A DNA stretch of 64,000 nt from Collinsella sp. An2 (GTDB lineage: Bacteria; Actinomycetota; Coriobacteriia; Coriobacteriales; Coriobacteriaceae): positions 1 to 64,000 of the forward strand of contig NZ_NFJW01000010.1 of NCBI RefSeq assembly GCF_002160065.1. Reading direction: 5' to 3'. Shown one piece after another: positions 6,221 through 58,578 of this stretch. Both the position numbers and the translations under genes were made by a program. The number at the start of each line of letters is the position of its first letter. Position 1 is the first letter of the stretch. The notes beneath the pieces were generated by a model, which worked only from the letters and a program-made list of their open reading frames with translations, searched no databases and had not been told where the DNA came from.

Positions 6221-6229
6221 GATCGTCTC

Positions 6230-8082: not shown

Positions 8083-8117
8083 GGATGCTCCTTTCGCGGG
8101 CGACGGTGGTGCGGGAA

Positions 8118-9125: not shown

Positions 9126-9817
9126 CGAGCGTCCTCCTTCTTGCTGCCAAACGAGAGCTTGGACTCGTTGCCATGCACAAGCTTCTTGATGTTGGAACGA
9201 TGCGCCCACACGACGAGGATAGCGAGCACGGCAAACGCTACGCGCATCTCGATGGAGGACGCGGGATACCAGAACCAGATAAGAAACGGCAGGGAGATGG
9301 CCGCGAGCATGGAGCCAACCGAGACGTAGCGGGTGATGATGACACCGATAAGGAACGGGACCCACAGCGACAGGCCGACCGGCGGGATGAAGGTGACACA
9401 AACGCCGAAGCCGACTGCGATGCCCTTGCCGCCCTTGAAGTGAAGGTACGGCGTGAACATATGGCCCGCGAGCGCCGCGACACACACGAGAGACAGCGCC
9501 CAGTCACAGGGCTGGCCGGCATCGAGCAGCGTCGGCGAGGGGTCGCAGAACATCGCCATGACGGTGCGCGACGCAAGCACGCAGACGACGCCCTTGAGCA
9601 CGTCGCACAACAGGGTGAGCGCGCCCATCTTGGCGCCGCCCACGCGCAGGGCGTTCGTGGTGCCGATGTTGCCGGAGCCCGACTTGCGGATGTCTCCTTT
9701 GCCAAAAAGCTCGCCGAAGATGAATCCGAAGGGGATGCCGCAGATGAGATAGGTCACAAGCATGCAGCCGACGGTGACGCCCACGGTGATGGGCATGCTG
9801 GGATTGAATGGCATCAT
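9122..9817 (-). CDS. plsY: Glycerol-3-phosphate acyltransferase PlsY
   Basis: Integral membrane enzyme that acylates glycerol-3-phosphate from acyl-phosphate. Motifs: GSGNIGTTNALR (about 46-57) and GHMFTPYLHFKGGKG (about 115-129). Five or so hydrophobic segments. 231 residues, slightly longer than usual because of a basic C-terminal tail. Coupled by ATGA overlaps to der upstream and gpsA downstream. Confidence 0.96.
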   Translation of the reverse strand: MMPFNPSMPITVGVTVGCMLVTYLICGIPFGFIFGELFGKGDIRKSGSGNIGTTNALRVGGAKMGALTLLCDVLKGVVCVLASRTVMAMFCDPSPTLLDAGQPCDWALSLVCVAALAGHMFTPYLHFKGGKGIAVGFGVCVTFIPPVGLSLWVPFLIGVIITRYVSVGSMLAAISLPFLIWFWYPASSIEMRVAFAVLAILVVWAHRSNIKKLVHGNESKLSFGSKKEDAR

Positions 9818-11154: not shown

Positions 11155-11157
11155 GCA

Positions 11158-42160: not shown

Positions 42161-45100
42161 GTGGGCCTAGAACATGCATCTCGACATACCAGCGTCGAAG
42201 AAGCGACGCAGCGCCACACGGCGTCTGCCGCGATGCATCCCCATGCCGAAGCTCCTGCCCCTACGAACGCGCCTGAAATGTCCCGTACAACTTCGCCTGC
42301 CGATTACGCGCTGTGGTGCCATGTGCTTCTGGGCGAGCTTGATGCCGAGCTTTGCAGCTATGACCTCGCCACGACCACGCTGACCGTTCATTTTCTTGAT
42401 GACCTCGGCATCATGCAGACGCGATCCTACGTGCATATGCCAGGCGTCGCCGTCGACGCGGGGCACGTGCATCCCGATTCCATCTCGACCTTCTGCGACA
42501 TATTTCAGCGCCTAGAAAACGGTGAAGACGGCGTGCAGGAGAACGTCATGCTCCTGAGCAGGCGCAACAATGCGTTTGGATGGTCGAACATCTCGTTTCA
42601 TATGCAGTATGACGATGCCGGCACGCCGGTGCGAGCGGTCGGGCTACGGCGTGACCTCGAGAACGATGAAGGCGTCCAATCGTGGTATGGGGAGCTTCCT
42701 GAAGCCCTCTGGCCGGATCTGGTTCGCACGGGAACGATCAACCTTGCCACCCGCATGATCGACGCCGCCCTGGTTCGACATCACGACAGCGCGAAGCTGC
42801 TCCGCAACATATCGCTCGAAGAGGGTATGCGGCGCATCGAGGTCTCCCTCTGCGGTTCGGTGGCTCTCGAGGCATACCGCCAGTTGCTCGACCCCGAACG
42901 TCTTGCCAAACGCTTCGAGGAGGGACGTCGCTGGTCGGTCGGCTGGTTTCGCATGATAGACGGCGGGGTCGTCAAACCGATGCGCATCGCCGTGAACGTG
43001 CGCAAAGGAAACCGTGGCAATCTGGTCGCCAGAACGTTTACCAGCTGCGTGCAGAAGCGCGACCACTGGGAGTCACAGACCGACCTATCCTGTATGCGCG
43101 ATGCCGAGAGCCTTCTGTATCGTCGGGACTACGCACGCGTGCTCGTACCATCGGTCTTGCGGGAGGTTGACGCCGGGTCGCTCAGCTCGCTGTCGGTGAT
43201 TCAGATCATCGAGCTCGAGCCTATGCCCAAACGTCTCAAGGCCGACCTTGCATGCGCTATCGGTGTGTTCCTTGGCGTCGATTGCATTCCCTATCGATTT
43301 GACGAAGAGTCCGTGGGCGTGCTCGTTCCCTCTGCGGGCTCCGACGATGAGCTATGGCATCGTCTTTCCGACGCCATAGCGGCCGCACGGGCAAGTCTCG
43401 TCGATGCCGATCAAGCGGATTCGCGGCGGTTGTCGAACGTTCGCATCATTGCCGAGTCGATCTATGCCACACCCGACTATCTTGATATCGTTTCGGCGGC
43501 GGATATGGCCCGATCTGCCTGCGAGCGGCGCGCGACGGCGCCGGACGGCCTGGCAGCCGACTTCGTACAGCCTCCGGTTTCTCAATACGAGCTGCTCGAA
43601 CAGGGTGGTTCTTCAACGAGCGACCGTGTGGTCGACAACCCCATGGCACTCGGCTCGTTAAGCGACGAAGAGATTCGGGCGTTTGCGCTCATTCTTTCGA
43701 CCATGTTGAATTCCGGCTCAACGCGTCAGGCTATCACCGCAGCACTGCGTGGGCTTGGGATGTACCATGGTGCGCGTCGTGTCTACCTCGTGATGGTGAA
43801 CGCTCATGACGGCTTGCTCAACATTCCGTTCGAATGGTCGGATGCTGGGACGATGTCGATCAAGGGCAGGCTGTCGGATACCCCGGCGCTGCGGTTCCCC
43901 TTCATTGCGCGCAACATCGGGGCGACCCATCCGGTCTATGTGAGCCGTCCTCGCATCCAGACCTATGCAGACGAGGGCACGATTAAAAACGATACCTGGC
44001 GATTTTGCATCGTGCCGGTTGAGGCAGACCATGAGGTGTCGCTTGCCATCTGCATCGATGACCCAACGCGTCATTTCGATAGCTGGGAGCTTGACCGCGC
44101 CCTTGCGGCACGCGTTTTCCGCGAGTGGAGACTCTTGCGGCATAGCCGGCACGGCAACCAGGAACATTCGCTGCAGGCGGCCGGCGAGCTGCCGGGACGT
44201 CATGACCTTGAGCGTACGATCGGCGAGGCGCTTGGAGAAGGATGGAGCTCGTGCGGGGCTTTGGCGATCTGCGTCCCTCATCCGGACCAGCTTGTCAAGG
44301 CAAAGGGACTTACCTACGCCATAGAGGTCGTAGCTTCCATCAAGGGGGCACTGAGCGCCCTTGACGATGAGAACGCAGCCTATCAGATCTCTGACACCGA
44401 GTTCGTGGTGCTCTTCTCCGACGTCTCGTATCGCACGTTTGTTCAGCGGTGTGCGGAGATTCGTACCATGCTCGTCACAGCGCATCCGTCGGCCATTCAT
44501 GTTGGTAGCGCTTGGACCGGTATTCCGGCAGAGGTGCGCAACGTTGTGGACGAGGCGCTCGCCATCGCGCAGCACGACAACGGCCTGGCGTATGACGGTC
44601 TTGGAGCTGCGAACAACGTCACGCGTCTTGATGATGTGGAGCAGGAGGGCGCCGAGCACGCTCTTGGAGCGAACATCGCCGAGCGATTCGTCGTGTACCT
44701 GCAGCCAAAGATCGACGCGCGCAGCGGTCAGATCGTTGGGGCCGAGGCGCTTGCCCGCTATGTTGATGTCGACGGACGGCCAATCTCTCCCGTCACGCAG
44801 ATCGACCATCTTGAGCGCAGCGATGAGGTTGCCGCGCTCGACTACTACGTATTCGACGAGACTCTGTCGCTCATGAGCGAATGGAAAGAGCGGGGCTATT
44901 CCACGATTCCGGTTTCTACCAACTTCTCGCGCGCCACGCTGCTCAGTCCGACCTCGCTTGCGTCGGTGCTGGCCATCATGAGCCGTCATCCAAACGTCGC
45001 CCCCGATACGCTGGAGATGGAAGTTACCGAAAGCGCGCTCGACCTGGGTACCGTAACGCTCAACGAGCTCGTGAGCCGCTTCCGGTCGCTTGGGCTGCGA

Positions 45101-45403
45101 ATCGCCCTCGACGACTTCGGCTCCCACTATTCAAGCATGTCGGTGCTGGCAAACGTGACGTTTGACACGATTAAGCTCGACCGAAGCTTGGTATACGGCC
45201 TTCCCGACAATCCCGTGTCGGCGAGCATGGTGAGAAGCATCTCCGAGATCTGCCACGAACAAGGCATGGCGTGTGTGGCCGAAGGCGTTGAATCCAAGGC
45301 CCAGGCCCGTATGCTCATTGATGCGGGATGCCCGATATGTCAGGGGTTCTACTACGACAAGCCCCTGCCGCCCGATCTCTTCGAGGAGAAGTACCTCGTC
45401 TAG
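42161..45403 (+). CDS. Multidomain EAL protein (cyclic-di-GMP phosphodiesterase, probable)
   Basis: 1080 residues, no membrane segment seen. C-terminal EAL domain (about 840-1080) keeps the catalytic set: AEALARY, STNFS, EVTES, LDDFGSH, IKLDRS, AEGVES, CQGFYYDKP, so hydrolysis of c-di-GMP is likely. Two upstream regions look like degenerate GGDEF folds (FDEES near 379 and SDTEF near 743), and a GAF-like domain lies about 507-660. The N-terminal 270 residues are PAS-like. Start GTG 42161 with AAGGGG upstream. A TATAAT box at 42095-42100 may be its -10; no matching -35 was found. Confidence 0.85.
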   Translation: MGLEHASRHTSVEEATQRHTASAAMHPHAEAPAPTNAPEMSRTTSPADYALWCHVLLGELDAELCSYDLATTTLTVHFLDDLGIMQTRSYVHMPGVAVDAGHVHPDSISTFCDIFQRLENGEDGVQENVMLLSRRNNAFGWSNISFHMQYDDAGTPVRAVGLRRDLENDEGVQSWYGELPEALWPDLVRTGTINLATRMIDAALVRHHDSAKLLRNISLEEGMRRIEVSLCGSVALEAYRQLLDPERLAKRFEEGRRWSVGWFRMIDGGVVKPMRIAVNVRKGNRGNLVARTFTSCVQKRDHWESQTDLSCMRDAESLLYRRDYARVLVPSVLREVDAGSLSSLSVIQIIELEPMPKRLKADLACAIGVFLGVDCIPYRFDEESVGVLVPSAGSDDELWHRLSDAIAAARASLVDADQADSRRLSNVRIIAESIYATPDYLDIVSAADMARSACERRATAPDGLAADFVQPPVSQYELLEQGGSSTSDRVVDNPMALGSLSDEEIRAFALILSTMLNSGSTRQAITAALRGLGMYHGARRVYLVMVNAHDGLLNIPFEWSDAGTMSIKGRLSDTPALRFPFIARNIGATHPVYVSRPRIQTYADEGTIKNDTWRFCIVPVEADHEVSLAICIDDPTRHFDSWELDRALAARVFREWRLLRHSRHGNQEHSLQAAGELPGRHDLERTIGEALGEGWSSCGALAICVPHPDQLVKAKGLTYAIEVVASIKGALSALDDENAAYQISDTEFVVLFSDVSYRTFVQRCAEIRTMLVTAHPSAIHVGSAWTGIPAEVRNVVDEALAIAQHDNGLAYDGLGAANNVTRLDDVEQEGAEHALGANIAERFVVYLQPKIDARSGQIVGAEALARYVDVDGRPISPVTQIDHLERSDEVAALDYYVFDETLSLMSEWKERGYSTIPVSTNFSRATLLSPTSLASVLAIMSRHPNVAPDTLEMEVTESALDLGTVTLNELVSRFRSLGLRIALDDFGSHYSSMSVLANVTFDTIKLDRSLVYGLPDNPVSASMVRSISEICHEQGMACVAEGVESKAQARMLIDAGCPICQGFYYDKPLPPDLFEEKYLV

Positions 45404-45450: not shown

Positions 45451-45507
45451 AAGATAGCTGTGGGCGGGCATCGGTGCGGCGCGATGCCCGCCCACGTGCC
45501 TATCTTT
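45451..45507. terminator. Bidirectional terminator between convergent genes
   Basis: 14-bp perfect stem (45460-45473 with 45482-45495) extended by AAGATAG/CTATCTT flanks. It separates the EAL gene (plus) from the CheB-CheR gene (minus) and overlaps the latter's stop codon. U-rich tails are modest on both strands. Confidence 0.75.
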
Positions 45508-48037
45508 GGGCTCGTTCCCCGGCACCCAGGCTGTCGATTATGGTGATGACAAGCCCCTTGATGCTGTTTTCCGTTGTACGGTACGGCGCGATACGAACGG
45601 TATAGCACTTGCCGCTGAGGGCCTCGACCTCGCGATCGATAGGCGTCAAGTCACGCAACACCTGCTGAGCATCGCCCACGATATCCTCTCTCGGGAAGCT
45701 ATGGGCAAAGATCTGGATGGGGCGCCCCACGTCATGGTCCATGAGCTGGAACTCGCGCCCTACGTACTCGGTGAACTTGCGAATATTGAAGTTCTCATCG
45801 ATAAACAGGATGCCGATCATCGTCGAAGACAAGAAGTTCGAAAGGTCGTTCGTGGTCATCGTAAGCTCGTCGACCTTTTGCTGATACTCGGAGTTGACGG
45901 TGTAAAGCTCTTCGTTCACCGACTGAAGTTCTTCGTTGGAGCTTTGCAGCTCCTCGTTCGCGGTGAGCAGCTCTTCATTTGCGGCTTGAAGCTCCTCGTT
46001 GACCGTCTCGAGCTCGCCGATCGTCGACTGCAGGTTGCTCTGCGAATCGCGAAGCTCGGCTTCGAGGTCCGCGATGCGGCGGGCGGTGGTCTTGTCGATG
46101 TCGTACTTCTCAACAACGCCCGTAGGCGAGCTCAACCGATGTTCTACGAACAGCATCGCCGTCAAGGTAGCCTCGATGTTTCCCGGCATGGGGATGGGCT
46201 GTGCGATAAGGTCGATGACCCTGGTTCCCGAGGGGCAGTCCACGCTGATGTCCTGGTAGGTCACCGCGGTGTTCTCGCTGCGGCTGCGGGACAACGCCGT
46301 CGATGCCGCAAGGGAAAGCCCCGGATTGATGATGGTGAACAGGTTGAAGGTCGCCTTGCCCGGCGCGATGGCCACGTACTCAAGGTAGTCCCCGAAGAAA
46401 TGGATGACGTCGTTTGCCTCGTTGACAATCACAGAAGCAGGCAGGAAACGCTCGAGGAACTGCGTGTAGATGTTCTCCAGGCCATAGTCGGTCTGGCGTT
46501 GCCGCTCGATATGCTGGGTGCGCGGCGCGACGGAGGGTACAGCGGGAATGGTGAAGGTGGCAGGTGAGGGCCCTTCCATCTTCCCGGTCCCGTTGTGGAT
46601 GTAGATCTTCTCAGTCGAGCAGGCCGGCTGGAAGATGTTGGGGTATTCGTTAGCCGTCTCGCTTTTTCCCAGGAACAAGTAGCCGCCGTTTTTCAGCGCG
46701 GAATGGAAGATGGCGAACAGACTTCGCTGCAGCACCGGCTGGAAATAGATCATGACGTTGCGGCAGCAGATGAGATCGAGCTTTCCAAACGGAGGGTCCG
46801 AGAGCATGTTGTGCGGCGCAAAGATGACCATCTGGCGGATCTCTTTCGAGATGACATACGTGTCGCCGCGCTTCACGAAGAATCGGGCCAAGCGCTCAGG
46901 AGAGACGTCCTCGATGATGCTTTCGGGGAAGACGCCCTTGCCGGCACGCTCAATCGCGCTCACATCGATATCGGTCGCGAAGATCTTGATGTCGCGACGC
47001 ACCTGCAGCTCGTCAAGTACCTCTTTAAAGAGGATGGCGATGGAGTAGGCCTCCTCCCCTGTCGAGCAGCCGGCGCTCCAGACACGGATGGAGTCCTCAG
47101 GGATACTGGCACGCACGATAATATTGATGACGGTGTTCTTCAGCACTTCAAAGAACGGCGCGTCGCGGAAGAAGCTCGTGACGCCGATAAGAATCTCTTT
47201 TGCAAGCACGGCGACCTCATCGGGATTCTCGTCGAGCGAACGCGCATAGTCGGCAAGGCTGGACGCATGCGTGACCATGATGCGGCGCTCGATGCGACGA
47301 ATCACCGTCGAGCGCTTGTAATGCGTAAAGTCGATATCGCGCCGTTTTTTGAGCTCGCGATAGATGAGGGACAGGCTTTCTTCGTCGGTGAACAGCTCCT
47401 CTCCCGAGCTCGAAACGAGGTTCATATGGAAGCGTGCGAAGTTGACGATCTCGGCGGCGATTTGCTCTGGCGGCAAGACCCAGTCCACGAGGCCCGTCGA
47501 GATGGCGCTGCGCGGCATGCCGTCAAACTTCGCGCTTTCGGGATTCTGCACGATCGCGATGCCGCCCGCCTCCTTGACGGCGCGGATGCCCGAGGTGCCG
47601 TCGCTGCCGGTGCCCGAGAGCACGACGGCGACCGCACGCTCGTGGCACTCCTCGGCAAGCGATGAAAAGAAGATGTCGATGGGGTGATTCAGCACCTGGT
47701 GGTCGTAATCGGCAAGATGTAGGCGACCGCCGGCGATCGTCAGGTTTTTCTTGGGCGGAATCAGGTAGACCGTGTCGGCCTCCACCTTGCAGCCGTCCTC
47801 GGCCTGCACGACCGGCATATCGGTCTGTTTGCCAAGAATCTCGGACATGAGGCTGCGATGGTCGGGAGACAGGTGTTGGATGACGACGTACACCGCTCCA
47901 CTCTCCGTTGGAAGCGAGGCAAAGAGCTCCTGCAGCGCCTCCACCCCGCCCGCTGACGCCCCGATGCCGACGACGAACGGCGCGCGCCCACGGTTGTGCC
48001 CGCGCTCTGCGGTACTCTGTTCCACTTGTTGTGCCAT
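45500..48037 (-). CDS. CheB-CheR-PAS fusion protein
   Basis: 845 residues. Methylesterase domain with triad Ser28 (GASAGG), His55 (VIQHLSP) and Asp146 (SGTGSDG). Then a CheR-type SAM methyltransferase with SAGCSTGEEAYSIA, a long coiled coil of repeated NEELQ-type heptads (about 625-705) and a C-terminal PAS domain. No histidine kinase follows and there are no chemoreceptor or flagellar genes here, so it probably serves another signalling output. The start ATG 48037 has AAAGGA seven bases upstream; an ATG 48 bases earlier lacks one. Last gene of the glycan operon, 66 bases after the glycosyltransferase. Confidence 0.88.
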   Translation of the reverse strand: MAQQVEQSTAERGHNRGRAPFVVGIGASAGGVEALQELFASLPTESGAVYVVIQHLSPDHRSLMSEILGKQTDMPVVQAEDGCKVEADTVYLIPPKKNLTIAGGRLHLADYDHQVLNHPIDIFFSSLAEECHERAVAVVLSGTGSDGTSGIRAVKEAGGIAIVQNPESAKFDGMPRSAISTGLVDWVLPPEQIAAEIVNFARFHMNLVSSSGEELFTDEESLSLIYRELKKRRDIDFTHYKRSTVIRRIERRIMVTHASSLADYARSLDENPDEVAVLAKEILIGVTSFFRDAPFFEVLKNTVINIIVRASIPEDSIRVWSAGCSTGEEAYSIAILFKEVLDELQVRRDIKIFATDIDVSAIERAGKGVFPESIIEDVSPERLARFFVKRGDTYVISKEIRQMVIFAPHNMLSDPPFGKLDLICCRNVMIYFQPVLQRSLFAIFHSALKNGGYLFLGKSETANEYPNIFQPACSTEKIYIHNGTGKMEGPSPATFTIPAVPSVAPRTQHIERQRQTDYGLENIYTQFLERFLPASVIVNEANDVIHFFGDYLEYVAIAPGKATFNLFTIINPGLSLAASTALSRSRSENTAVTYQDISVDCPSGTRVIDLIAQPIPMPGNIEATLTAMLFVEHRLSSPTGVVEKYDIDKTTARRIADLEAELRDSQSNLQSTIGELETVNEELQAANEELLTANEELQSSNEELQSVNEELYTVNSEYQQKVDELTMTTNDLSNFLSSTMIGILFIDENFNIRKFTEYVGREFQLMDHDVGRPIQIFAHSFPREDIVGDAQQVLRDLTPIDREVEALSGKCYTVRIAPYRTTENSIKGLVITIIDSLGAGERAQR

Positions 48038-48103
48038 ATTCCAATCCTTTCCGTCCCCATACGAGACGTAACTCGCCTTTTTCATAGTGCGCTGAGCGCT
48101 TCC

Positions 48104-49516
48104 TCACTCGGCGTCGAGCGTATGCCGCTGCACCGTCTCCCACCTGCGTCCGCGTTTGCGGTAGCCAATGAGTGCGGCCATGCGCGTCACCGCAAGGATG
48201 AACCGCAACACCGTCACCTCGAAGAGCGACAGCAAGACGGCCCGCACGATGTCGAGGGCTGTCAGCCGCAGATCACGTGTCTGCACGCGAGAGAAGAATG
48301 CGGTAAGCGACATGACAGCCCCAAAGACCGCGTAGATTCCGAAGAACATGAGCATGAACGGAACGTTGATGAAGTTGAAGATGGCCGCAACGATCATCGT
48401 TACGATGCCGAAGAGCTCGATGACCGGAGACAGCAGTTCGTAGACAAGAAAGTATGTATAGGAGAGAACCGCGACCGGACCAAAGCGGAAGTTGGCGAAC
48501 AGACGCGTGTGCTTGACCATGGATTCGAACAGGCCCGTGTGCCAGCGCCGGCGCTGCCGCATGAGGTCGCCCAGGGTTTCGGGGGCTTGGCTCCAGCAGA
48601 TGGCATCCGGAGCGTACCGGATGCGATACGGAATGTCGTTGCCGCGGCAGAACACGTGCAGCCGTGTGACGAGCTCCATATCCTCCCCCACCGTCTGGGG
48701 GTCGTATCCGCCCACCGCAAGCACTAGATCTTTGCGGAACAGCCCAAACGCCCCCGAGATGATGAGGTTGCCGTTAAACTGGTCGAGCAGGATGCGGGCA
48801 GACAAGAACGAGCGGTCGTACTCGAGGACCTGCATGGCAGGGATAATCTTCTTGGGCAGCGAATAGGACTGCACCCAGCCGTCGCGCAGGGCGATGCCGT
48901 TGGCGGGACGCACCAGACCTCCCACGGCAACCACCGTATCGTCCTCGATCACGGGCGTGACGATCTCGCGCAGTGAATCCCGCTGCAGTGCCGAGTCGGC
49001 GTCGATGCAGATGAAGTACGGAAACCGCGAAACGTTGATGCCCGCGTTCAAGGCGTCGGACTTCCCGCCGTTCGCCTTGCGGACGAGCGTGAGGTGGACA
49101 CCCGACACCTCGGCCGTCCACAGGCTCTCGATGGGCTGGGTCGCGAGGCGGATCTGCACGGGGCGGTCCGTACGCTCGAGGCAGAAGGTGTCGATTACCT
49201 TGCGCGCGGTGTCGTCGGTGGAGCCGTCGTCAACGACCACGACCTCGTAGAGGCGGTAGTCGAGGGCGAGCAGGGACCGCACGGAGCTGACGATGGTGAC
49301 GCCCTCGTTGTGTGCGGGGACGATGATGCTTACCGGCACGTAGCAGTCCGGCGCGATATGGCTTAGGTAGTGCGCTTCGCGCGAACGGCGATTCAAGATG
49401 GAGGCGCCGACCGTCACGGAAAGGAACAGAAACGTGGCGTAGCCGATGAGGTAGATGATGAAGAAGACGCCCACGGCCCAAAGGAAAGCCTGCACGGAGG
49501 CAGCAAGCGGTGTCAT
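48104..49516 (-). CDS. Processive family 2 glycosyltransferase (surface polysaccharide synthase)
   Basis: 470 residues. One N-terminal membrane segment (about 12-36), GT-A domain with all processive-synthase signatures: DD at 96-97, DAD at 172-174, GED at 277-279 and QRRRW at 321-325, then about four C-terminal membrane helices. Resembles PgaC/hyaluronan/cellulose-type synthases, which polymerise and export a beta-linked glycan. There is no PilZ domain, so direct c-di-GMP binding is not evident. The sugar cannot be read from sequence. Coupled to the HEAT-repeat gene by ATGA. Confidence 0.9.
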   Translation of the reverse strand: MTPLAASVQAFLWAVGVFFIIYLIGYATFLFLSVTVGASILNRRSREAHYLSHIAPDCYVPVSIIVPAHNEGVTIVSSVRSLLALDYRLYEVVVVDDGSTDDTARKVIDTFCLERTDRPVQIRLATQPIESLWTAEVSGVHLTLVRKANGGKSDALNAGINVSRFPYFICIDADSALQRDSLREIVTPVIEDDTVVAVGGLVRPANGIALRDGWVQSYSLPKKIIPAMQVLEYDRSFLSARILLDQFNGNLIISGAFGLFRKDLVLAVGGYDPQTVGEDMELVTRLHVFCRGNDIPYRIRYAPDAICWSQAPETLGDLMRQRRRWHTGLFESMVKHTRLFANFRFGPVAVLSYTYFLVYELLSPVIELFGIVTMIVAAIFNFINVPFMLMFFGIYAVFGAVMSLTAFFSRVQTRDLRLTALDIVRAVLLSLFEVTVLRFILAVTRMAALIGYRKRGRRWETVQRHTLDAE

Positions 49517-50673
49517 GCGGCATCGCCTCCCAGGACAGGCACTTCTGTCTTATCGTTCGCGTCGCTGGCGCCGCCAAGCTTCCAGCGGAAGACGACCATA
49601 TCTCGCGCGAAGCGATCGTCGCCGCACATGATGTTGGCGAGCTCACGCTCAGGTGTCGCTCCAAGGCGGAAGAGGCTCTCGGCTGCGTTGTAGCGAACGT
49701 GGTAGACGGGGCTGTGAAGGCAGCGCTTCAGTGCCTGCACGGTCTTGTCGCATGGGTAGGAGCCCAGGACCGTTGCGGCCACGGCGGCGTACTCCCATGA
49801 AGCCGACGTGTCGGCCCGGGTGAAATCTACGATGGGATCCAATGCGGACTCCCAAGGATTGGTCATGAAGTAGCGCATGCAGGCAAGCCTGACCTCGAGG
49901 TTCGCGCGATCGTCCTGCATGAGGTCGAGCAGAAATTGATGGCGGTCGATCGGCGCGGGTTCGCATCCGTAGCGGGCTGTCCTTGCGTGACGCAGGAAGT
50001 TGATGATGCAGACCTGCATCTCGGGCGTGCGCTGTTTGAATCCTTCGAGGAGCGCGTCGGCAAGCTCGTTTCGGTCCCCCGGATAGGCAAGCAGCGTCTC
50101 CGAGATCAAGCGGTGTGCGCGCTTAGCACCGTCCGCATCGAGCAGCCGAACGGCACGTGCGATCTCGGTGGCCGTGCTGATATGCACCAGAGCCTCGAAG
50201 GCGTTCTGACGCGAATAGAGGGCTTTGTCGCTGAGGCACGCAAACAGGTCGGCTATGAGCGCCGAGGATGCGGGGCGCCCGCGGTACCAACGCGTGACGA
50301 TGGCCGCAAAGTAGGCGCGGCGCAACGAGTCCCTACCGGTAAACGAGGGCAGCAGCGTATCGAACACGCCGGAGATGTCTTCTAGATAGTGTTCGGCCTC
50401 ATCGGGCATCTCTGAGCTGAGCCGCTCCATGGTGCGGTCGAAGGACTCCATGCCCGAAAGCGTGCGCAGCCTTCGGCTCAGAAGCTGGCGATGCTCGGCG
50501 TCGGTTCCGTCGAGCCCGCGAGCAATCGCTGTCTCCAACAGGGTCGCCATGTGGCGCGACCGCCGCTCGAGCAAAAATGCGCGAACCGTCTCCCACTGCA
50601 GAAAAACGAGGTCGAATATGATCATGGCAAGGCTGACGATTGCGTAGAACGCGATGAAGATAGATGCTGTCAT
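49513..50673 (-). CDS. Membrane-anchored HEAT-repeat protein
   Basis: 386 residues. One N-terminal membrane segment (about 3-25) and then a series of helical pairs consistent with HEAT repeats, clearest at about 285-345 (ALKRCLHSPVYHVRYNAAES). HEAT scaffolds bind proteins, suggesting it supports the neighbouring synthase or CotH kinase. ATGA overlaps on both sides place it within the operon. No enzyme motif seen. Confidence 0.75.
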   Translation of the reverse strand: MTASIFIAFYAIVSLAMIIFDLVFLQWETVRAFLLERRSRHMATLLETAIARGLDGTDAEHRQLLSRRLRTLSGMESFDRTMERLSSEMPDEAEHYLEDISGVFDTLLPSFTGRDSLRRAYFAAIVTRWYRGRPASSALIADLFACLSDKALYSRQNAFEALVHISTATEIARAVRLLDADGAKRAHRLISETLLAYPGDRNELADALLEGFKQRTPEMQVCIINFLRHARTARYGCEPAPIDRHQFLLDLMQDDRANLEVRLACMRYFMTNPWESALDPIVDFTRADTSASWEYAAVAATVLGSYPCDKTVQALKRCLHSPVYHVRYNAAESLFRLGATPERELANIMCGDDRFARDMVVFRWKLGGASDANDKTEVPVLGGDAA

Positions 50674-52934
50674 GCCGCATCACCCGTCCACGCTTCTTGT
50701 AAGGCAGAGAAGACCGGCTTGAGGCGTTCATGGGTGGTAACTTCGGTGTCCCATCCGTCCAAAAGCAGCTCGGACATCTCTACGACATCTTGTGATAGAG
50801 CATTGTCGCCACCTACCGAAATACCAAGCGAAAGAGCGTCGATAGACATATCTTCGACGCCGTAGTGCTCGTAATAATCTTGGTGAACACGCATGGTCGA
50901 TGGATCGCTAAAGTTTAGGAGCTGCCAGGGAATGCGCACCTCCAAAACACCGTCTCCGTAACAATAATCTGCTAGGGAGTCGTAGTCGGGACTGTCCGGA
51001 TCGGCATTGCCCTGACGGAGCTTTCCCGTCGACGCATATGCGTCGGTGAGATCGTATTGAAAGTTCTCCATTTTCTCGAGACCGATTGTTCCATCATCCA
51101 AAGTGGGAAGCGGCTGATCAAGGGCAAGCAACGAAAGCGTCGTGCGAGCCATGGTCACAGGCTTGAATAACGGAGAATCCTTTGCAGGGATGGAGACATA
51201 CGGATCGCGGCCCTCGACGGTCATGAGCATCATTGCCCTCGTGACGTCATAGCGTTCCTGCACATATAAGCACGCATCGTTCCCATCGAAGAGAATCATA
51301 AAGTCGGCGGGCTGCTCAAAGACAAGGGGAAGCGTCGTCGCATCCACTTTCAACTCGGCATATGTGAGAATTCCGCTCAACGCTTCTGTATCGGGCAGAT
51401 AGCAAGCAGTTGTCGAACCGCTCATGCTGGTTACGTCGATGGGGATAATAGTCCTTTGTCCTTCAGCAACGTCATCACCAGAGATTTTGAGATACAGGTA
51501 GCGTTCATCATATTGTGCAAAGAGCTCAGACCCATGTGCCGAGATAATCGGGTCGATTCCATCCCACTCTTCGTCCGATCCGTCGACGATGCAGCATGGA
51601 AGCTCCTCGCCAGGATCAAACGCAAGAATTCCGTATCCCTGATCGACCGTCTGAGCATCGCTCCAATACGGTGTCCTCAGCTGATCGGTTGCAAAAACGG
51701 TATTCCATGTCCGTCTTCCCCACTCATCGTTCCACTCGTAGGCAAAGGAACCGGCACATTGCGCTTCTACGATGTCGCGATAGCACTGGACCATAAGCTC
51801 AGCCTGTTCGCGTTCGGAGAGGCCTCCTTGGTCACGGCCCGTTGTGTCTTCGGCGTATCCGGTTCCCCGTGAGGACGAAAGACCGTATTCCCCTATGACC
51901 ACAGGACAGGAATGATGTTCAACAAGAGCTGTAAGATACGGACGATAGCAATTGCCGTCGGCGTCGGCGCAAAATGGCGCCTCACCGGGTTCAAGATATC
52001 GAGCGTAATCAGGCTCAAACGGATACACGTGGTACAGAGCGAAGATTCCAGAATGAAGCTCATCGGTTCCGACAAGATGCTCGATATCGACCGAAGCGTA
52101 TTTATTGAACGTTTCGGCGATACGGTCTGGATATTCAAACGGATCGGTCGTCGGGCTGTTGACGATTCCTATGAGCCGTTGCTCATCATAACGTTGCGTC
52201 TCGTAGGCAACGGTTTCGTCGACGAGGCGGGCGAGCATGGATTCGAAGGCCGAGGAGTCTTGAGTTGAAGAAGCGTACCGACCGGTGTACGGAGCCATTT
52301 CGGCATCAACGCTGTCGGTATATGCAACCGCGCGCGTGTCCCACGGCACGCCAAGGGCGTATCCGACGACCCAGCTCGATACATCTACGGTATAGGAACC
52401 CGTTCCGGATACCTGTCTAAGCTCTAACGGAAGTCGGCCATGGATGGCATCGATGACCTTTTTGGCCCCATCCCGCAGCGAGCCGAAATAACCCTCATCA
52501 TAGGCATCCATGTGAGAGTATGCAGCGTAATCATCAAGATAGACTCCCTGCAGAAGATAGAGCGGCGTATCTGCCTGCTCATTGTATTCGCTCAAAGCCC
52601 GATAGAACGCATCGCCCATCAGCATGTAGACACGAATCGTATTAGCGCCCATATCCTGAATCTCAGAGAACCAACGCGTATACGTTTCTTCATCCACCGC
52701 ATAGTCGCTTACAAAAGCACCCGGCACGGAACCTGCAAGGTCTACACCACGCATGGTAAATGGTTCCCAGCCTTCCGAAGAGAGGGCCTGAGTCTCCTTG
52801 CCGTGCGTTCGCCACTCGCAGCTGATTTCTTCAGGAGAATCGAGAAGCAAATCGACTCCATGATTCCAGACAAGATAAAACGCAATGAATGCGAGCAGTG
52901 TCACAGCACACATCGCCAAGATGAATCGTTTCAT
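50670..52934 (-). CDS. Membrane-anchored glycoside-hydrolase-like protein with CBM9-like tail
   Basis: 754 residues. N-terminal membrane anchor (about 4-23, no lipobox), then a TIM-barrel-like region typical of clan GH-A: RGVDLAG, DMGANTIRVY, and the nucleophile-like Glu349 in VVIGEYG. The segment expected to carry the acid/base Glu reads IVNSPTTDP, with Ser at 260, so activity is uncertain. The C-terminal part (about 450-745) begins CCIVDGSDEEWDG and resembles CBM9/DOMON carbohydrate-binding folds. Possible roles are trimming, transferring or binding the glycan. Base composition is clearly lower in GC than its neighbours. ATGA overlap with the HEAT gene. Confidence 0.7.
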   Translation of the reverse strand: MKRFILAMCAVTLLAFIAFYLVWNHGVDLLLDSPEEISCEWRTHGKETQALSSEGWEPFTMRGVDLAGSVPGAFVSDYAVDEETYTRWFSEIQDMGANTIRVYMLMGDAFYRALSEYNEQADTPLYLLQGVYLDDYAAYSHMDAYDEGYFGSLRDGAKKVIDAIHGRLPLELRQVSGTGSYTVDVSSWVVGYALGVPWDTRAVAYTDSVDAEMAPYTGRYASSTQDSSAFESMLARLVDETVAYETQRYDEQRLIGIVNSPTTDPFEYPDRIAETFNKYASVDIEHLVGTDELHSGIFALYHVYPFEPDYARYLEPGEAPFCADADGNCYRPYLTALVEHHSCPVVIGEYGLSSSRGTGYAEDTTGRDQGGLSEREQAELMVQCYRDIVEAQCAGSFAYEWNDEWGRRTWNTVFATDQLRTPYWSDAQTVDQGYGILAFDPGEELPCCIVDGSDEEWDGIDPIISAHGSELFAQYDERYLYLKISGDDVAEGQRTIIPIDVTSMSGSTTACYLPDTEALSGILTYAELKVDATTLPLVFEQPADFMILFDGNDACLYVQERYDVTRAMMLMTVEGRDPYVSIPAKDSPLFKPVTMARTTLSLLALDQPLPTLDDGTIGLEKMENFQYDLTDAYASTGKLRQGNADPDSPDYDSLADYCYGDGVLEVRIPWQLLNFSDPSTMRVHQDYYEHYGVEDMSIDALSLGISVGGDNALSQDVVEMSELLLDGWDTEVTTHERLKPVFSALQEAWTGDAA

Positions 52935-52975
52935 ATGGTCCTCCCCTCAGAGCTCATGAAATGCGTGCTCGACAA

Positions 52976-54532
52976 TCAGTGGTTATCCATCTTTACTGCG
53001 GACTCATGTGAGTACTGTTTCAAGCTTTCAATGTGGGTGTCGAGCCAGGTGCCTCGTTTATCGATGAACGCCCTGAGCTCTCCGATTGCCTCCTCATAGC
53101 TTGTCGGATTTCTCTCAATAGGGATCAAGCGGTGTTCGGCCTTGAGGGTAGTGGGATCGAAGGTGGAACCCCAGACCTTCCAATTGCGCTCGATTGCAGG
53201 TCCCAAGAAGTCGAGTGCCGAATCGATAAAGTTGCCTAGATACTCGTCCGAAAGAACATCTTGACGCAGCTGACGATAACGATCGATGACGGCATCGATG
53301 AAATCCTCGTCCTTGACAAGCATGGTGAACCAAGGACGATTGACCATCGTGAACCCCGATGCGTCAGAGTAATCCGCTTCCGCATAGTTATCGAAAGCGC
53401 TGTTGAAATCCCAGATCGGTCCAAGTGATATACCGCTGCGCAGGTCGCGGGACAAATATGTCGAATAGAGAGCAGCATCGTAATTCATGCTGAACTCGTT
53501 CGCTATGAAATAGGAGACGAACGAGTCCACATCGATATAGTTCCAGTATCCGTAATCCGCAGTGTCATAGTCATATGAATAGAGAGCCTTTTCAAAGGCA
53601 CTGAAATCTTCCTCTATCCATTGAAGTTGCTCGTCGGTTAGTTCTTCCGCTTTGGGATACAAGACTTCAAGAGATGAATCAAGTAAGCCAACCTGAGAAC
53701 CGAGATTGTCGAGCGTGACGGCATTCATATCATATCGATCAAGCTTCAACATATAGCTTGTTTCCGGTCCACTATTCACACCCTGCTCTGTTTCGGTGAG
53801 GCTGACGCGACTTTCGGAAACATCAACCGCCTCCATACAAAGAAAGAGGCCACGATACTCATCGTTCACGAACAGCTCACAGAACCGAACCTCCGGGGTA
53901 TCTTCGCAAAAGGTTCCGAAGACGTTATACGCAAGATAGTTGCGAATAAGGGATTTATCGAGATAGGGTCCGTTAAGAATCCAACCGTTGTCCGCCGGCA
54001 TCCCCAGGACGCCCTCGTTCACAGGGTTGCCTTCCTCATCGATAAAATGAAGGGAGTAGTTTCGTTTGGGAAAGTCCCGCGACCGGTGTCCTCGGTAGCG
54101 GATACGAGTCTGAGATGAAAAGATCGGGTCATCGCTCAGCTGGTTAGCGCTTCCCTCATCGTAGATGATGTCGATATCTCCGATAATGTAGTCGAGGCCT
54201 TCTGCGGTTTTCGTTTCGTAGTATCGCCCGTCAGGACGAAGTTTGGCGTCTCCATCCTCCTCGGTAACCACGTCGCCCGGGACCTCCTGTCCGCGCGTGT
54301 CTATGGACACGACCGGCAGATGGCTTGCAAAGGTCTCGGGGTCGATGCTCGTCGAGCTCGCAGCGGCGCGGTCGGCCTCTGAGAGGTCGTCCAAGGAGGC
54401 CGCCTGCTCATGCTGAATGTAGCGCTGCTGGGTCCCGGTCTCCTTCTCAATCTCCCAGGTTCCCAGATGCGCCGCCACGGCAACGATAAGAGCGCAGACG
54501 CACGCTATGATGGCAATTGCTTTCGACCGCAT
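52976..54532 (-). CDS. CotH-like protein kinase family
   Basis: 518 residues. N-terminal membrane anchor (about 5-22). The CotH core shows RIRYRGHRSRDFPKRNYS with Lys156, GWILNGPYLDKSLIRN, VNDEYRGLFLCMEAVD with Glu234 and GPIWDFNSAFDN with Asp375, the set used for nucleotide and metal binding in spore CotH kinases. The second acidic residue of the usual WDFD motif is Asn here. Predicted to act outside the membrane. Like the preceding gene it is GC-poor (43 percent in the 60 bases from 53641, against 63 percent from 49021). Follows the DUF4956 gene by 14 bases. Confidence 0.85.
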   Translation of the reverse strand: MRSKAIAIIACVCALIVAVAAHLGTWEIEKETGTQQRYIQHEQAASLDDLSEADRAAASSTSIDPETFASHLPVVSIDTRGQEVPGDVVTEEDGDAKLRPDGRYYETKTAEGLDYIIGDIDIIYDEGSANQLSDDPIFSSQTRIRYRGHRSRDFPKRNYSLHFIDEEGNPVNEGVLGMPADNGWILNGPYLDKSLIRNYLAYNVFGTFCEDTPEVRFCELFVNDEYRGLFLCMEAVDVSESRVSLTETEQGVNSGPETSYMLKLDRYDMNAVTLDNLGSQVGLLDSSLEVLYPKAEELTDEQLQWIEEDFSAFEKALYSYDYDTADYGYWNYIDVDSFVSYFIANEFSMNYDAALYSTYLSRDLRSGISLGPIWDFNSAFDNYAEADYSDASGFTMVNRPWFTMLVKDEDFIDAVIDRYRQLRQDVLSDEYLGNFIDSALDFLGPAIERNWKVWGSTFDPTTLKAEHRLIPIERNPTSYEEAIGELRAFIDKRGTWLDTHIESLKQYSHESAVKMDNH

Positions 54533-54546
54533 GGAGACACCGCCGC

Positions 54547-55230
54547 TTAGCTGCCGATTTCATCGTTTTGAGCGACGATGTTGACATACTCCACGTCACC
54601 GAGGGCATAGATGCGCTCGGTGAGCACGACGCCGGCTCCCTTCTGGGCACGGTCGAGTGCGCCCTTGGTCACCTCGAAGATAAACTCGACGCTCGACTCG
54701 GTGGTGTTCTTGACGCGCAGGCTCGCCTTGGACCCGAGAAGCTCGAAGATCTTGCCCTCGATTTCAAGCTCGCGAGCACGGGCGGCGCGGATGATGATGA
54801 GGGTGCGCACATCGTTGCGGATACGGCCGAGCAGCAGCATGGTGACGAACACGGCGACGGTGCCCACAGCCGCAGCAAGGAACTGTGCCACACCACAGCA
54901 GATGCCGCAGATGATCGCCCAAAAGATATAGGTCGTATCGCGTGGGTCCTTGATGGCGGTACGAAAACGCACGATGGACAGAGCGCCCACCATGCCGAGG
55001 GACAGCGCGATCGAAGAGCCGATGACCATCATGACGGTCGCCGTGAGAACGGTGAGGGTCACGAGGTTCACGTTGAACTTCTGCGAATAGATGGTTCCCG
55101 CATGGCTCTCCCAATACGAGACGAAGATCACAAGTCCCAGGATGACGGCGCAACCCACGCGCAGTACCGCGTCCTCGAGGCCTACGACCGATGCCGATCC
55201 TTGCAGAAGCTGATAGAGCTCTTGTCTCAC
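54547..55230 (-). CDS. DUF4956 membrane protein
   Basis: 227 residues, four membrane segments in the first 150 and a soluble alpha/beta C-terminal domain. Family signature LGMVGALSIVRFRTAIKDP. Function unknown; commonly located with VTC-domain and CotH genes, as here. I chose GTG 55230 because AAAAGGGG is six bases upstream; an ATG at 55251 lies before this site. Confidence 0.88.
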   Translation of the reverse strand: MRQELYQLLQGSASVVGLEDAVLRVGCAVILGLVIFVSYWESHAGTIYSQKFNVNLVTLTVLTATVMMVIGSSIALSLGMVGALSIVRFRTAIKDPRDTTYIFWAIICGICCGVAQFLAAAVGTVAVFVTMLLLGRIRNDVRTLIIIRAARARELEIEGKIFELLGSKASLRVKNTTESSVEFIFEVTKGALDRAQKGAGVVLTERIYALGDVEYVNIVAQNDEIGS

Positions 55231-55290
55231 AATCCACCCCTTTTCCGTCATTGCATCCCGGCGAAAGATTTGTTGCCGATAGCATGGTTG

Positions 55291-55986
55291 CTAGAACTGA
55301 TAACCCATCGAGATGTCGCGCCCCAGACAATACTTGCTCACGGAAAGCGCTCGTTTCTCAACGGAGTTGAGCTGATCTTTGATGTAGCTCAACAGAAACC
55401 CGTTGTACTTCACCTCCAGGATGATGTTGAACGGGTCGAGCACCGGATGGAGAGGCAGATGTTCGTCAAACACGTTCACATTCGCCTCGGTCGCCCGTAT
55501 CTCCGAATCGAAGGTGATGCGAATCCGGTTCTCCTTCGCCACGTACGCGCGTCGTCGATACTCGATCACCGCCTTGGGGCGGTAACCGTTGCAGGCGATA
55601 AACGCGTAGAGCTCGCCGGCAAAGGCCTCGGGACGTTCCAGCATCCAAGAGAGGTCGCCTGCGACAAGTCGCTCTGCCTCTGTGCGGCACAGGGGTAGCG
55701 ACCGCTTGAGCTGATGCTCCCCTTCTTTCTGCTTCATCTCGAGCAAGGCGAAGTCTGCGGTGGGGTCATAGAGGCGAAGACGCAGCTTGCGCCTCGGATC
55801 AGTGCCGAAGAGCTTTTCGACGAAATCACGGTCCGAGACGGTGTCAAAATACAGGGAGCGAATACTATAGCCGCACGGCCCGTTGTGGTCATCCTCGTGC
55901 ATGACAGCGGCAAGGCGGCGCTGAAGCTTGGCCGCCGCAGTGGGATCGACCAAGAACTTCTTCTCCTGCCTCGTCACCTGCCGCAC
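55291..55986 (-). CDS. VTC-domain protein (polyphosphate-polymerase-like tunnel fold)
   Basis: 231 residues. Triphosphate-tunnel motifs: RQEKKF at 6-11, SIRSLYFDT, RRKLRLRLYD, ALLEMKQKEG, VIEYRRRAY and ILEVKYNG. Yeast VTC4 uses this fold to make polyphosphate; bacterial relatives next to CotH and DUF4956 lack a proven role. GTG 55986 has GGAGGG nine bases upstream. It is the first gene of the minus-strand operon. Confidence 0.88.
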   Translation of the reverse strand: MRQVTRQEKKFLVDPTAAAKLQRRLAAVMHEDDHNGPCGYSIRSLYFDTVSDRDFVEKLFGTDPRRKLRLRLYDPTADFALLEMKQKEGEHQLKRSLPLCRTEAERLVAGDLSWMLERPEAFAGELYAFIACNGYRPKAVIEYRRRAYVAKENRIRITFDSEIRATEANVNVFDEHLPLHPVLDPFNIILEVKYNGFLLSYIKDQLNSVEKRALSVSKYCLGRDISMGYQF

Positions 55987-56174
55987 GTGCCGGCACCCTC
56001 CCTATTTCATGCTTAAACACCAAACAAACATCCCTATACGCAGGAACATTTGTAGATAATCAGTATACCGTCAGAACTTTGAGGGGGAGTACAGATTTTC
56101 TCCGGCTACCTTTATGCTGGTACAGCGACAGCATATTCGTGGTCGAACAACCAAGCGTTGAAGGGAGATGCACG
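55987..56174. promoter_or_regulatory. Divergent control region between VTC operon and GGDEF gene
   Basis: 188 AT-richer bases. A GGTATACTGAT stretch near 56058-56068 can serve as a -10 on either strand because TATA is self-complementary. I found no clear -35 or operator palindrome. Its position makes it the likely switch for both transcripts. Confidence 0.4.
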
Positions 56175-57359
56175 GTGAGGGCTCTCGTGCATGCATATCG
56201 TACCTATCAAGCACGCGCAGCGGCGTACTTCAAGGACGGCGTACGCGAGATTGCAGCCGATAACTTCAAGTTTCTGCGCTTTGCGAGCATTGCGACGTTG
56301 CTTCTGCTTGTCTTCCTGCTCCTGCTGGCACCGGCGGTGATTCATGGCTGGAAGCCCTCTGTGTTCCATCTCGTCTTCCTCCCGGTCATGATCGTGTTCT
56401 GCGCGATCGCCTGGATGGGCCATCGGCGCGGCATGCTCCGCCATGCCCTTCCCATGTGCATCGCCTTTGAGATTGTGCTCTACGCCTTCATGATCTTCCT
56501 TGATACCGCAGCAGAGCCCGACTCACCAAGCACCTTCATGCAGCTCGTATGTATTGCCCTTCCCGCGCTCTTCATCATGCCCGACTTCATAACCTACGGC
56601 TTGCTCACCGCGGCCGAGGTCGTCTACCTTGTGTGCGTCATCACGCTGAAGGAGCCAGGAATCGCCCAGTACGACATCTTCGAGATGATCACGGGCTTTC
56701 TGTTCGCGCTCTGCGTGTCGCATCTCACCATGAACTATCGGTTGAGTGCCCATGAGATGCGCATGAAGTACGAGATCATGAGCAAGCGCGACACGCTTTC
56801 GAATCTCTATAACAAGCGCGCCTTCGTCGAAAAGGCACGTGCGTATCTGGAGAGCGTCAACCCACACTGCACCTGTTCTCTGGCATTTTTGGACCTCGAT
56901 GACTTCAAGGCGTTAAACGATACGCTGGGACATCCGGCAGGTGACGAGGTGCTCATCGACATGGGCCATCTCCTCAGCGAGCTCTTCCGCCCCACCGACA
57001 TCATCGGGCGCTTCGGCGGCGATGAATTCCTGGTGCTTGTTGAGGGTATGGCAGATATCGACTTGCTAAGACACCGCTTTGACGCGGTGCGTACGCGCCT
57101 GCGCGAGGCCTGTGAAAAGCAGCTGGGGTACGAGATCGGCTGCAGCGTGGGCATCGTTTATCTCAACAACGAGCCGGCAGATTTCGATGAACTCGTGGGC
57201 CAAGCGGATGCACAGCTGTATACCGCCAAGCGCGAAGGAAAGAGCCGTACGCGTATCGCCCACTACGTTCCGGCCGGAGTGGAGGCGGTGGACACCAACG
57301 TCAGACAGTCTCCGAACGGAGATGAAGCCGATAGGACGCATGGCTCATCAATAATGTAA
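56175..57359 (+). CDS. Membrane diguanylate cyclase (GGDEF)
   Basis: 394 residues. About six membrane segments (about 30-205), then a GGDEF domain with the intact motif FGGDEFLVL at about 280-288 and a canonical inhibitory I-site RPTD exactly five residues before it. Makes c-di-GMP from GTP with probable product feedback. I chose GTG 56175 with AAGGGAG upstream; a TTG 96 bases earlier is in frame but lacks a site. Divergent from the VTC operon. Confidence 0.93.
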   Translation: MRALVHAYRTYQARAAAYFKDGVREIAADNFKFLRFASIATLLLLVFLLLLAPAVIHGWKPSVFHLVFLPVMIVFCAIAWMGHRRGMLRHALPMCIAFEIVLYAFMIFLDTAAEPDSPSTFMQLVCIALPALFIMPDFITYGLLTAAEVVYLVCVITLKEPGIAQYDIFEMITGFLFALCVSHLTMNYRLSAHEMRMKYEIMSKRDTLSNLYNKRAFVEKARAYLESVNPHCTCSLAFLDLDDFKALNDTLGHPAGDEVLIDMGHLLSELFRPTDIIGRFGGDEFLVLVEGMADIDLLRHRFDAVRTRLREACEKQLGYEIGCSVGIVYLNNEPADFDELVGQADAQLYTAKREGKSRTRIAHYVPAGVEAVDTNVRQSPNGDEADRTHGSSIM

Positions 57360-57399: not shown

Positions 57400-58578
57400 A
57401 TGGGCATCGTCTCACGAAGTGAATTCGAGACCTCGACCGCCGAGGCGTTCGACCGCGTCTGGGGTCTTGCAGACGACTACGGTCCCATACCTGCTCGCTC
57501 GCGTGACCCGCACGCCCTCCTGATTGCCGACGACGACGCGATCAATCGTCTCGTGCTTGCCAACCTGTTCGGTGACCACTACGAGATAGACGAAGCTGAG
57601 GACGGCACCCAGGCGCTCGCCATGGTGCTCAATGACCCTCTACGCTATGCCGCCATCCTCCTCGATTATCAAATGGAGGGCATGAACGGAATCGAGGTGC
57701 TGCAGGGCCTGGCAAGAGTCAGATTAGTCGAACGCATCCCCACCTTCCTCATCAGCGCTGAGGTCGACGATGCTGTGACCGAGCGTGCCTACGCGCTGGG
57801 CGTCATGGACGTCGTTGAGAAGCCAATCATCCCCTACGTCGTCAACAGGCGCGTCGGGTCCGTCATCGAGCTCTTCTCGGCACGCCGGCGTCTGAGTACC
57901 GTCGTGCAGGAACAACAAACCGAGCTCGTGCGCCGAGCGACAACGATCATCGAGCTCAACCGCGGTATGATCGAGGCGCTTGCCGCCGCCATCGAGTTTC
58001 GCGACGGCGAGAGCGGCGACCATGTGCGCCGCATTCACGACATCACGCATGCCCTGCTTACCGATACCGATCTGGGAAGCGGGCTTTCCTCTGACGACGT
58101 CTCGAACATCGCGCTTGCGTCCATCATGCACGACGTGGGCAAGATCGCCATCCCCGACGCCATCCTGTGTAAACCGGGCCGCCTCACGCCCGAAGAATTC
58201 GAAACCATGAAGACGCATACCGTGGTCGGCGCGGAGATGCTGGCGAAAATCCCGCAGATGCGCCGCAGCGAGGTCTATCGCTACGCGGTCGATATTGCCC
58301 GACACCATCATGAGCGCTGGGACGGACGAGGGTATCCCGACGGTATCGGCGGGTCGGAACTGTCAATGTGGGCACAGGTCGTCTCGATTGCCGATGTCTA
58401 CGACGCGCTGCGCTCAAAGCGCGTCTATAAGGATGCCTATGGACGCTCACAGGCACTGAACATGATCGAGGATGGCGCCTGCGGCACGTTCAATCCCAAG
58501 CTGCTCGCGACCTTCCGCGCAATCGAGCCGCGCCTGAACGCGATGTATGTCGGACAGAAGGAGGAAACCCGTGGATAG
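57400..58578 (+). CDS. Response regulator with HD-GYP phosphodiesterase domain
   Basis: 392 residues. N-terminal receiver with acidic pocket ADDD at 43-46 and acceptor Asp89 (LLDYQM), a helical linker, then HD-GYP with IMHDVGKIAIPD at about 241-252, HHHERWDGRGYPDG at about 303-316 and IADVYDALRSKRVYK. HD-GYP enzymes hydrolyse c-di-GMP to GMP. Expected to be switched by phosphorylation, probably through the Hpt protein directly after it. 40 bases after the GGDEF gene. Confidence 0.94.
   Translation: MGIVSRSEFETSTAEAFDRVWGLADDYGPIPARSRDPHALLIADDDAINRLVLANLFGDHYEIDEAEDGTQALAMVLNDPLRYAAILLDYQMEGMNGIEVLQGLARVRLVERIPTFLISAEVDDAVTERAYALGVMDVVEKPIIPYVVNRRVGSVIELFSARRRLSTVVQEQQTELVRRATTIIELNRGMIEALAAAIEFRDGESGDHVRRIHDITHALLTDTDLGSGLSSDDVSNIALASIMHDVGKIAIPDAILCKPGRLTPEEFETMKTHTVVGAEMLAKIPQMRRSEVYRYAVDIARHHHERWDGRGYPDGIGGSELSMWAQVVSIADVYDALRSKRVYKDAYGRSQALNMIEDGACGTFNPKLLATFRAIEPRLNAMYVGQKEETRG

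Follow-up and report, generated by a model that had tools for sequence, protein, structure and literature searches.

What do six adjacent genes make that together encode a VTC-domain protein, a DUF4956 membrane protein, a CotH-family kinase, a glycoside hydrolase (GH)-like protein, a HEAT-repeat protein and a family 2 glycosyltransferase (GT2), and what turns them on? These genes lie in a stretch of 64,000 nucleotides from Collinsella sp. An2 (contig NZ_NFJW01000010.1, positions 1 to 64,000), referred to here as the window. We conclude, with good support, that they probably encode a synthase-dependent exopolysaccharide system induced by cyclic di-GMP (c-di-GMP). This conclusion draws on the fixed six-gene order among relatives, a riboswitch joined to a terminator, adjoining c-di-GMP genes and the motifs and transmembrane (TM) segments of the synthase, as well as on a GH-A fold nearest to beta-1,3-glucanases and CE4 deacetylases in some loci. 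A fuller account, in which the system is built of two modules and includes phosphate steps, is one that we hold with moderate confidence; it draws in addition on the catalytic residues of VTC and on Streptococcus intermedius, where homologues of CotH and DUF4956 influence how much Pel is made and how far cells aggregate (PMC12345266). The six genes are:

55291-55986, minus strand: VTC-domain protein, 231 aa, no TM segment, first gene of the operon (PF09359, E 5e-41)
54547-55251, minus strand: MgtC-like DUF4956 membrane protein whose C-terminal domain is ACT-like (PF16316, E 3e-14)
52976-54532, minus strand: CotH-family kinase with an N-terminal membrane anchor or signal, predicted extracytoplasmic (PF08757, E 9e-61)
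50670-52934, minus strand: GH-like protein, predicted extracellular, clan GH-A barrel plus C-terminal beta domain in an AlphaFold2 model
49513-50673, minus strand: HEAT-repeat protein with an N-terminal TM segment (HEAT_2, E 3e-10)
48104-49516, minus strand: GT2 processive-type synthase with C-terminal TM helices (PF13641, E 1e-22)

The set occupies 48104-55986 on the minus strand, and all six genes are open frames. Gaps of 39, 14 and 41 bp separate VTC from DUF4956, DUF4956 from CotH and CotH from GH, respectively, while the GH/HEAT and HEAT/GT2 junctions overlap by 4 bp each, in agreement with the tightly packed minus-strand cluster that an earlier sequence-only reading of this DNA had described. 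The span given there, 45500-55986, held the six named families and also a seventh gene, a CheB-CheR-PAS fusion at 45500-48085. Pfam and NCBIfam scans confirmed five of the six families (VTC, DUF4956, CotH, HEAT and GT2); the sixth label, GH-like, had no Pfam match above cut-off and drew its backing from the modelled clan GH-A barrel. The VTC gene is the only one in this genome. A scan for promoter and terminator consensus sequences gave signal at background level. As a separate observation, the G+C content at third codon positions is 0.61 in CotH and 0.55 in GH (50670-54532) against 0.75-0.83 in their neighbours, possibly because the segment was replaced or because the extracellular parts evolve fast, and weakly similar dips occur in loci L079, L083 and L039.

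Is this arrangement kept elsewhere? A GH profile built from three homologues in plasmid records and one in genome G029 was scanned against named genomes; it found at least 538 relatives, of which the best 80 were kept, and per-gene profiles were then applied. The order VTC-DUF4956-CotH-GH-HEAT-GT2 was complete on one strand in 71 of 86 loci, a degree of sharing far above chance. The other 15 were cut by contig ends, save two plasmid loci without VTC, DUF4956 and CotH (hereafter the trio). Order and strand were constant in every locus of these best 80 relatives that was not cut by a contig end; selection by GH similarity is a bias, and more distant GH relatives may be without the trio. A genome search for conserved gene order had been proposed as a check of the earlier suggestion of a surface-glycan machine, and both the conserved loci and the c-di-GMP linkage described below support that suggestion.

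The main groups among the relatives were gut Clostridia, Eggerthellaceae and Bacilli, with hosts that include Blautia, Eisenbergiella, Flavonifractor, Oscillibacter, Holdemania, Paenibacillus agaridevorans, and Gordonibacter and other Eggerthellaceae; in Planococcus maritimus all six genes are on a 67-kb plasmid. In a GT2 tree the window groups with all Actinomycetota rows (clade support 100/100), and this clade branches among Bacillota rows, a pattern in keeping with one transfer, although the root is unsure. GH was present in only 3 of the 61 genomes in the sample of the window's order.

Evidence on control came from an Rfam riboswitch scan of 54 relatives (0.99 Mb). We detected 25 c-di-GMP riboswitches, 23 of class I and two of class II (L099 and L126), and 24 of them share the operon's strand and precede the VTC start by 42-252 bp, which gives 24 of the 54 relatives a c-di-GMP riboswitch ahead of VTC. 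In 22 of these 24 leaders the aptamer's 3' end doubles as the 5' arm of a terminator, a hairpin with a T-run behind it; such a hairpin was found in no more than 2% of shuffled leaders in 21 loci, and in some loci the terminator overlaps the closing helix of the aptamer by only a few bases. Since aptamer closure and terminator compete, c-di-GMP should permit read-through, and this architecture suggests that c-di-GMP would activate rather than repress the operon.

The neighbouring genes point the same way. Of 86 loci, 66 have a GGDEF, EAL or HD-GYP gene at a distance of up to 6 kb and 63 have one within 1.5 kb, so that the linked turnover or sensing elements of a c-di-GMP-regulated exopolysaccharide operon are present. 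GGDEF or EAL genes were found in none of 22 loci with VTC/DUF4956 (trio-only or pair-only) but without GH-HEAT-GT2, in the sequence stretch around each. The commonest neighbour is encoded beyond GT2 on the same strand, an EAL protein that retains the EAL motif and has lost the GGDEF signature in 51 of 53 cases. L088 (13668-15554) and similar loci encode an EAL protein with an extracellular N-terminal region, a TM segment, a degenerate GGDEF domain and an EAL domain. Because EAL motifs are also degenerate in some of the downstream proteins, some may be receptors, not enzymes.

The window itself is flanked by the following features:

56079-57359, plus strand: diguanylate cyclase (GGDEF; PF00990, E 2e-34), divergent from VTC
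57400-58578, plus strand: response regulator with receiver and HD-GYP domains (HD_5 match), HD and GYP motifs intact
42161-45403, plus strand: EAL phosphodiesterase (PF00563, E 3e-56), convergent
45500-48085, minus strand: CheB-CheR-PAS fusion (CheB 9e-61, CheR 4e-58, PAS_10 6e-22), accessory, not core
55987-56078: intergenic region between the divergent VTC and GGDEF genes, with presumed promoters and without an Rfam riboswitch

The GGDEF gene starts 93 bp from VTC on the opposite strand. Its product has an intact motif preceded by an RxxD I-site, and the EAL protein has intact EALAR, DDFG and EGVE motifs. Within this genome (2.54 Mb, 99.87% complete), the sole GGDEF, the sole EAL and the sole HD_5 domain all flank the operon, and PilZ had no match; a genome-wide search for c-di-GMP-I riboswitches was blank, as was its control. 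Two genomes of the same genus without the operon have no GGDEF, and other family members without it do have GGDEF genes, which makes the exclusive placement of c-di-GMP genes a property of the window's genome. The sequence-only reading had overlooked these flanking genes, and with them the c-di-GMP control and the two-module build. The CheB-CheR-PAS fusion begins 18 bp past GT2; we ruled it out as a core member, as it adjoins the operon in few loci (3 of 85 others, L039, L129 and L151, plus G003).

A spore-coat operon, to which nothing but the CotH name points, is scarcely credible. Eggerthellaceae and other Coriobacteriia, which are not known to form spores, carry the operon, and c-di-GMP control does not fit such a role; hosts and control together led us to reject it.

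Several individual loci depart from the common form. In L038 (G003, same family; 5747-12286) the operon is decaying: the VTC, DUF4956 and CotH frames are split, HEAT and most of GH are lost and GT2 is short, and the CheB-CheR, EAL, GGDEF and HD-GYP flanks are intact despite this. An insert of about 1.2 kb, resembling an insertion sequence transposase with a zinc-ribbon start, splits CotH in L039 (G029; 9517-10689). L079 (11506-15773) has three ATPase-like genes, with a P-loop motif recognized by eye, between GH and HEAT. In 17 loci, L087 (9539-10051) among them, GT2 is followed after about 21 bp on the same strand by a gene for a 170-aa protein that weakly resembles DivIVA. MT836222 (L157), an 11.8-kb record labelled 'Bacteriophage sp.' that holds the whole operon, was rejected as a phage; we read it as a bacterial contig, given a GT2 that hardly differs from the Oscillibacter sp. 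MSJ-31 protein.

What kind of polymer would such a system make? The GT2 protein conserves the motifs DADS, GEDMEL and Q(R)xRW and has TM segments at both termini, and thus shows the DxD, ED and Q(Q/R)xRW motifs and C-terminal TM helices of a processive GT2. The HEAT protein has a single TM segment (5-23) followed by positive charges across 83 homologues, and its repeats are predicted to be cytosolic. The AlphaFold2 model of the GH-like protein (predicted local distance difference test score, pLDDT, 80; predicted template modelling score, pTM, 0.83) is a TIM barrel of the clan GH-A fold, for which Foldseek ranked GH157/GH158 beta-1,3-glucanases best. Of 88 alignment rows, two of them from the window, 81 have E/E at the positions expected for the acid/base and nucleophile glutamates. 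CE4 polysaccharide deacetylases are inserted in the operon at L108 (5984-7438) and L110 (9480-11171), the first of these families being common to 13 loci.

A plain synthase operon for a poly-N-acetylglucosamine (PNAG)- or chitin-like polymer, with the trio as passenger, would account for part of this. The best NCBIfam match of GT2 is PgaC/IcaA, CE4 deacetylases occur in some loci, and Deinococcus radiophilus and Paenibacillus cellulosilyticus have GH-HEAT-GT2 but no trio; 'chitin synthase' is also the label in the published locus NELoc-2. However, the PgaC score is far under the equivalog cut-off (139.6 against 422.3 bits), the trio is present in every close relative not cut by contig ends, and the GH fold suggests beta-glucan enzymes, not PNAG hydrolases. 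We regard this explanation as distinctly improbable.

The trio is where phosphate would enter. The VTC profile matches yeast Vtc4 structures, and the Vtc4 catalytic residues K200, R264, R266, K281, K294, R361 and R373 correspond to invariant K10, R69, R71, K85, K94, R145 and R156. The position of Vtc4 R253 is an invariant lysine (K58), so that all eight positions are basic, as in a VTC polyphosphate polymerase. Arg264 and Arg266 are essential in yeast Vtc4 (PMC8749416). VTC is therefore predicted to be a cytosolic polyphosphate polymerase. The DUF4956 model (AlphaFold2, pLDDT 80) combines membrane helices with an ACT-like domain, and its C-terminal domain weakly resembles the MgtC C-terminal structures 2lqj and 7qa5 (E about 2e-3 to 4e-3). 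Its membrane region contains invariant R95, R97, K101 and R104; basic residues line the exit channel in yeast VTC (PMC9911596), a parallel that is suggestive only and that makes DUF4956 a candidate polyphosphate exit path. The CotH domain is full length (model 1-322/322), and its profile matches the Bacillus subtilis CotH structure 5jd9. A single hydrophobic segment (5-23), preceded by positive charge across 78 rows, predicts a location outside the cell. Asp375 of the WDxN motif is invariant and a candidate for the catalytic Asp (D228 in B. subtilis CotH); the alignment to 5jd9 spans the N-terminal part only. The phosphate modification proposed by the sequence-only reading would fit the retained catalytic residues of VTC and stays an inference as a whole.

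Could VTC-DUF4956 instead be an MgtC-like phosphate sensor or regulator, with VTC a triphosphate-tunnel enzyme and no polyphosphate export? The MgtC-like topology and ACT-like domain of DUF4956 would suit this, and the VTC-DUF4956 pair also occurs without CotH, beside Cthe_2159 carbohydrate-binding proteins. We consider it improbable, as the eight Vtc4 positions are all kept basic and the invariant Arg/Lys residues of DUF4956 recall the yeast channel lining (PMC9911596).

The operon is composed of two modules, a synthase module (GH, HEAT and GT2) and the phosphate trio. The first stands alone in the Deinococcus and Paenibacillus species named above; the second occurs without GH-HEAT-GT2 in Pseudobutyrivibrio and several Actinomycetota, and the VTC-DUF4956 pair is also found with Cthe_2159 proteins replacing CotH or near a fusion of leucine-rich repeats with CotH. 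Cthe_2159 proteins adjoin VTC-DUF4956 in L040, L041 and L046 (other Coriobacteriia), as an alternative extracellular partner to CotH. Published Gram-positive Pel loci contain the same trio (PMC7112168), and the statement that it is not found outside Pel loci (PMC12345266) fails on the wider data here; the trio is a portable module.

What the trio does for the polymer is the point on which two further explanations differ. Loss of CotH lowered Pel in S. intermedius, loss of DUF4956 raised it, and both cut aggregation (PMC12345266). That these deletions change Pel amount and aggregation and abolish neither, and that B. subtilis CotH is a protein Ser kinase (PMC7821199), would be expected if the same exopolysaccharide machine carried a regulatory trio, with either secreted proteins or the synthase complex as CotH substrates and a phosphate-free glycan. 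This is unlikely, if a serious competitor: CotH here is membrane-anchored and predicted to be outside, where ATP is scarce, and the operon encodes no conserved Ser-rich substrate. In the other explanation, CotH would draw on polyphosphate, made by VTC and exported by DUF4956, outside the cell where ATP is scarce; its acceptor would be an exopolysaccharide induced by c-di-GMP or the anchor of that polymer at the surface. We offer this polyphosphate-powered kinase tentatively and think it rather unlikely; if true, the trio would be a general phosphate-decoration cassette common to unrelated synthases (this GT2 and Pel).

Our preferred account, the c-di-GMP-induced two-module exopolysaccharide system, would run as follows. 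GT2 would polymerise a beta-linked glycan and extrude it, the membrane-tethered cytosolic HEAT protein would hold or activate the synthase, and the extracellular GH-A-fold protein would trim or bind the polymer. VTC would make polyphosphate from ATP at the cytosolic face, DUF4956 would pass it through the membrane, and CotH outside would use it to phosphorylate either the glycan or a surface protein. GT2 and GH-A hint at the beta linkage, and the inserted CE4 deacetylases at an N-acetylated sugar in those lineages; polyphosphate export, the use of that phosphate by CotH and the target of CotH are put forward just as tentatively. Several points weigh against this account. The Rfam scan found no c-di-GMP riboswitch in the window. 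The window's GH has P197/E349 and is without the likely acid/base Glu; the copy may bind rather than cut, and may be inactive even though the family as a whole fits, which is why we call it GH-like only. Polyphosphate export by DUF4956 is put forward purely by analogy. The two modules occur apart and need not share one substrate. Finally, an S. intermedius mutant of the VTC homologue still aggregated and made Pel (PMC12345266), and the trio genes there modulate rather than enable Pel.

Together, these results assign a regulatory signal, c-di-GMP, to what is probably an exopolysaccharide system, widespread in gut Clostridia and Coriobacteriia and so far annotated piecemeal. The operon is intact in dozens of mostly gut bacteria, which points to a widespread, essentially unstudied biofilm polymer. 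In the window's genome, c-di-GMP signalling seems to be confined to one circuit around the operon, which offers a natural minimal system for a receptor hunt. We found no paper that assigns exopolysaccharide synthesis to the six genes or ties them to c-di-GMP riboswitches (subscription papers and preprints were outside the scope).

How does the operon compare with known systems? The closest is NELoc-2 of Clostridium perfringens (CP4_0463-0468; Lepp et al. 2010, PMC2879425), whose published table lists, in matching order, VTC, a 222-aa membrane protein, CotH (497), a hypothetical protein (685), HEAT (377) and GT2 (466); judged by family, size and gene order, it is very probably the same system. 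It differs in having a resolvase, a sigma factor and a further VTC/membrane-protein pair, is associated with necrotic enteritis, and had its GT2 read as chitin synthase. It was described without function or an exopolysaccharide or c-di-GMP interpretation (PMC2879425; locus also in PMC11677781), and can now be recast as a probable c-di-GMP-type exopolysaccharide operon. The earlier term 'uncharacterised' was thus nearly right: the order had been published, without function (PMC2879425), and the trio was known as a Pel accessory (PMC7112168, PMC12345266). Gram-positive Pel loci with DUF4832 (PMC7112168; S. intermedius, PMC12345266) likewise place CotH, a polyphosphate polymerase, DUF4956 and an extracellular GH beside a synthase, but theirs is pelDEADAFG, in contrast to GT2 and HEAT here; membership in Pel was ruled out, with no match to PelG (PF16933) or DUF3492 PelF-type proteins (PF11997) in the window's genome. 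Listeria Pss (PMC4125290) is also a Gram-positive, c-di-GMP-induced, synthase-dependent exopolysaccharide system with a degenerate-GGDEF partner; no VTC/DUF4956/CotH/HEAT set has been described for it, and its receptor is PssE. The PNAG synthase PgaC/IcaA shares the processive GT2 family, and membership was rejected on the bit score given above. The zetaproteobacterial stalk cluster, which has a CotH domain only, in Sfz6, was ruled out as the same system. The GH157/GH158 beta-1,3-glucanases (PDB 9fz9, 9g5g and 9p25) share the clan GH-A barrel and an aligned nucleophile position at about 10-13% identity, whereas the operon GH has an extra C-terminal beta domain and its window copy is without the acid/base Glu. 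The yeast VTC complex (PMC9911596) resembles the operon VTC residue by residue in the catalytic domain; the operon VTC is without SPX or a VTC1-type TM domain and has a separate MgtC-like membrane protein instead.

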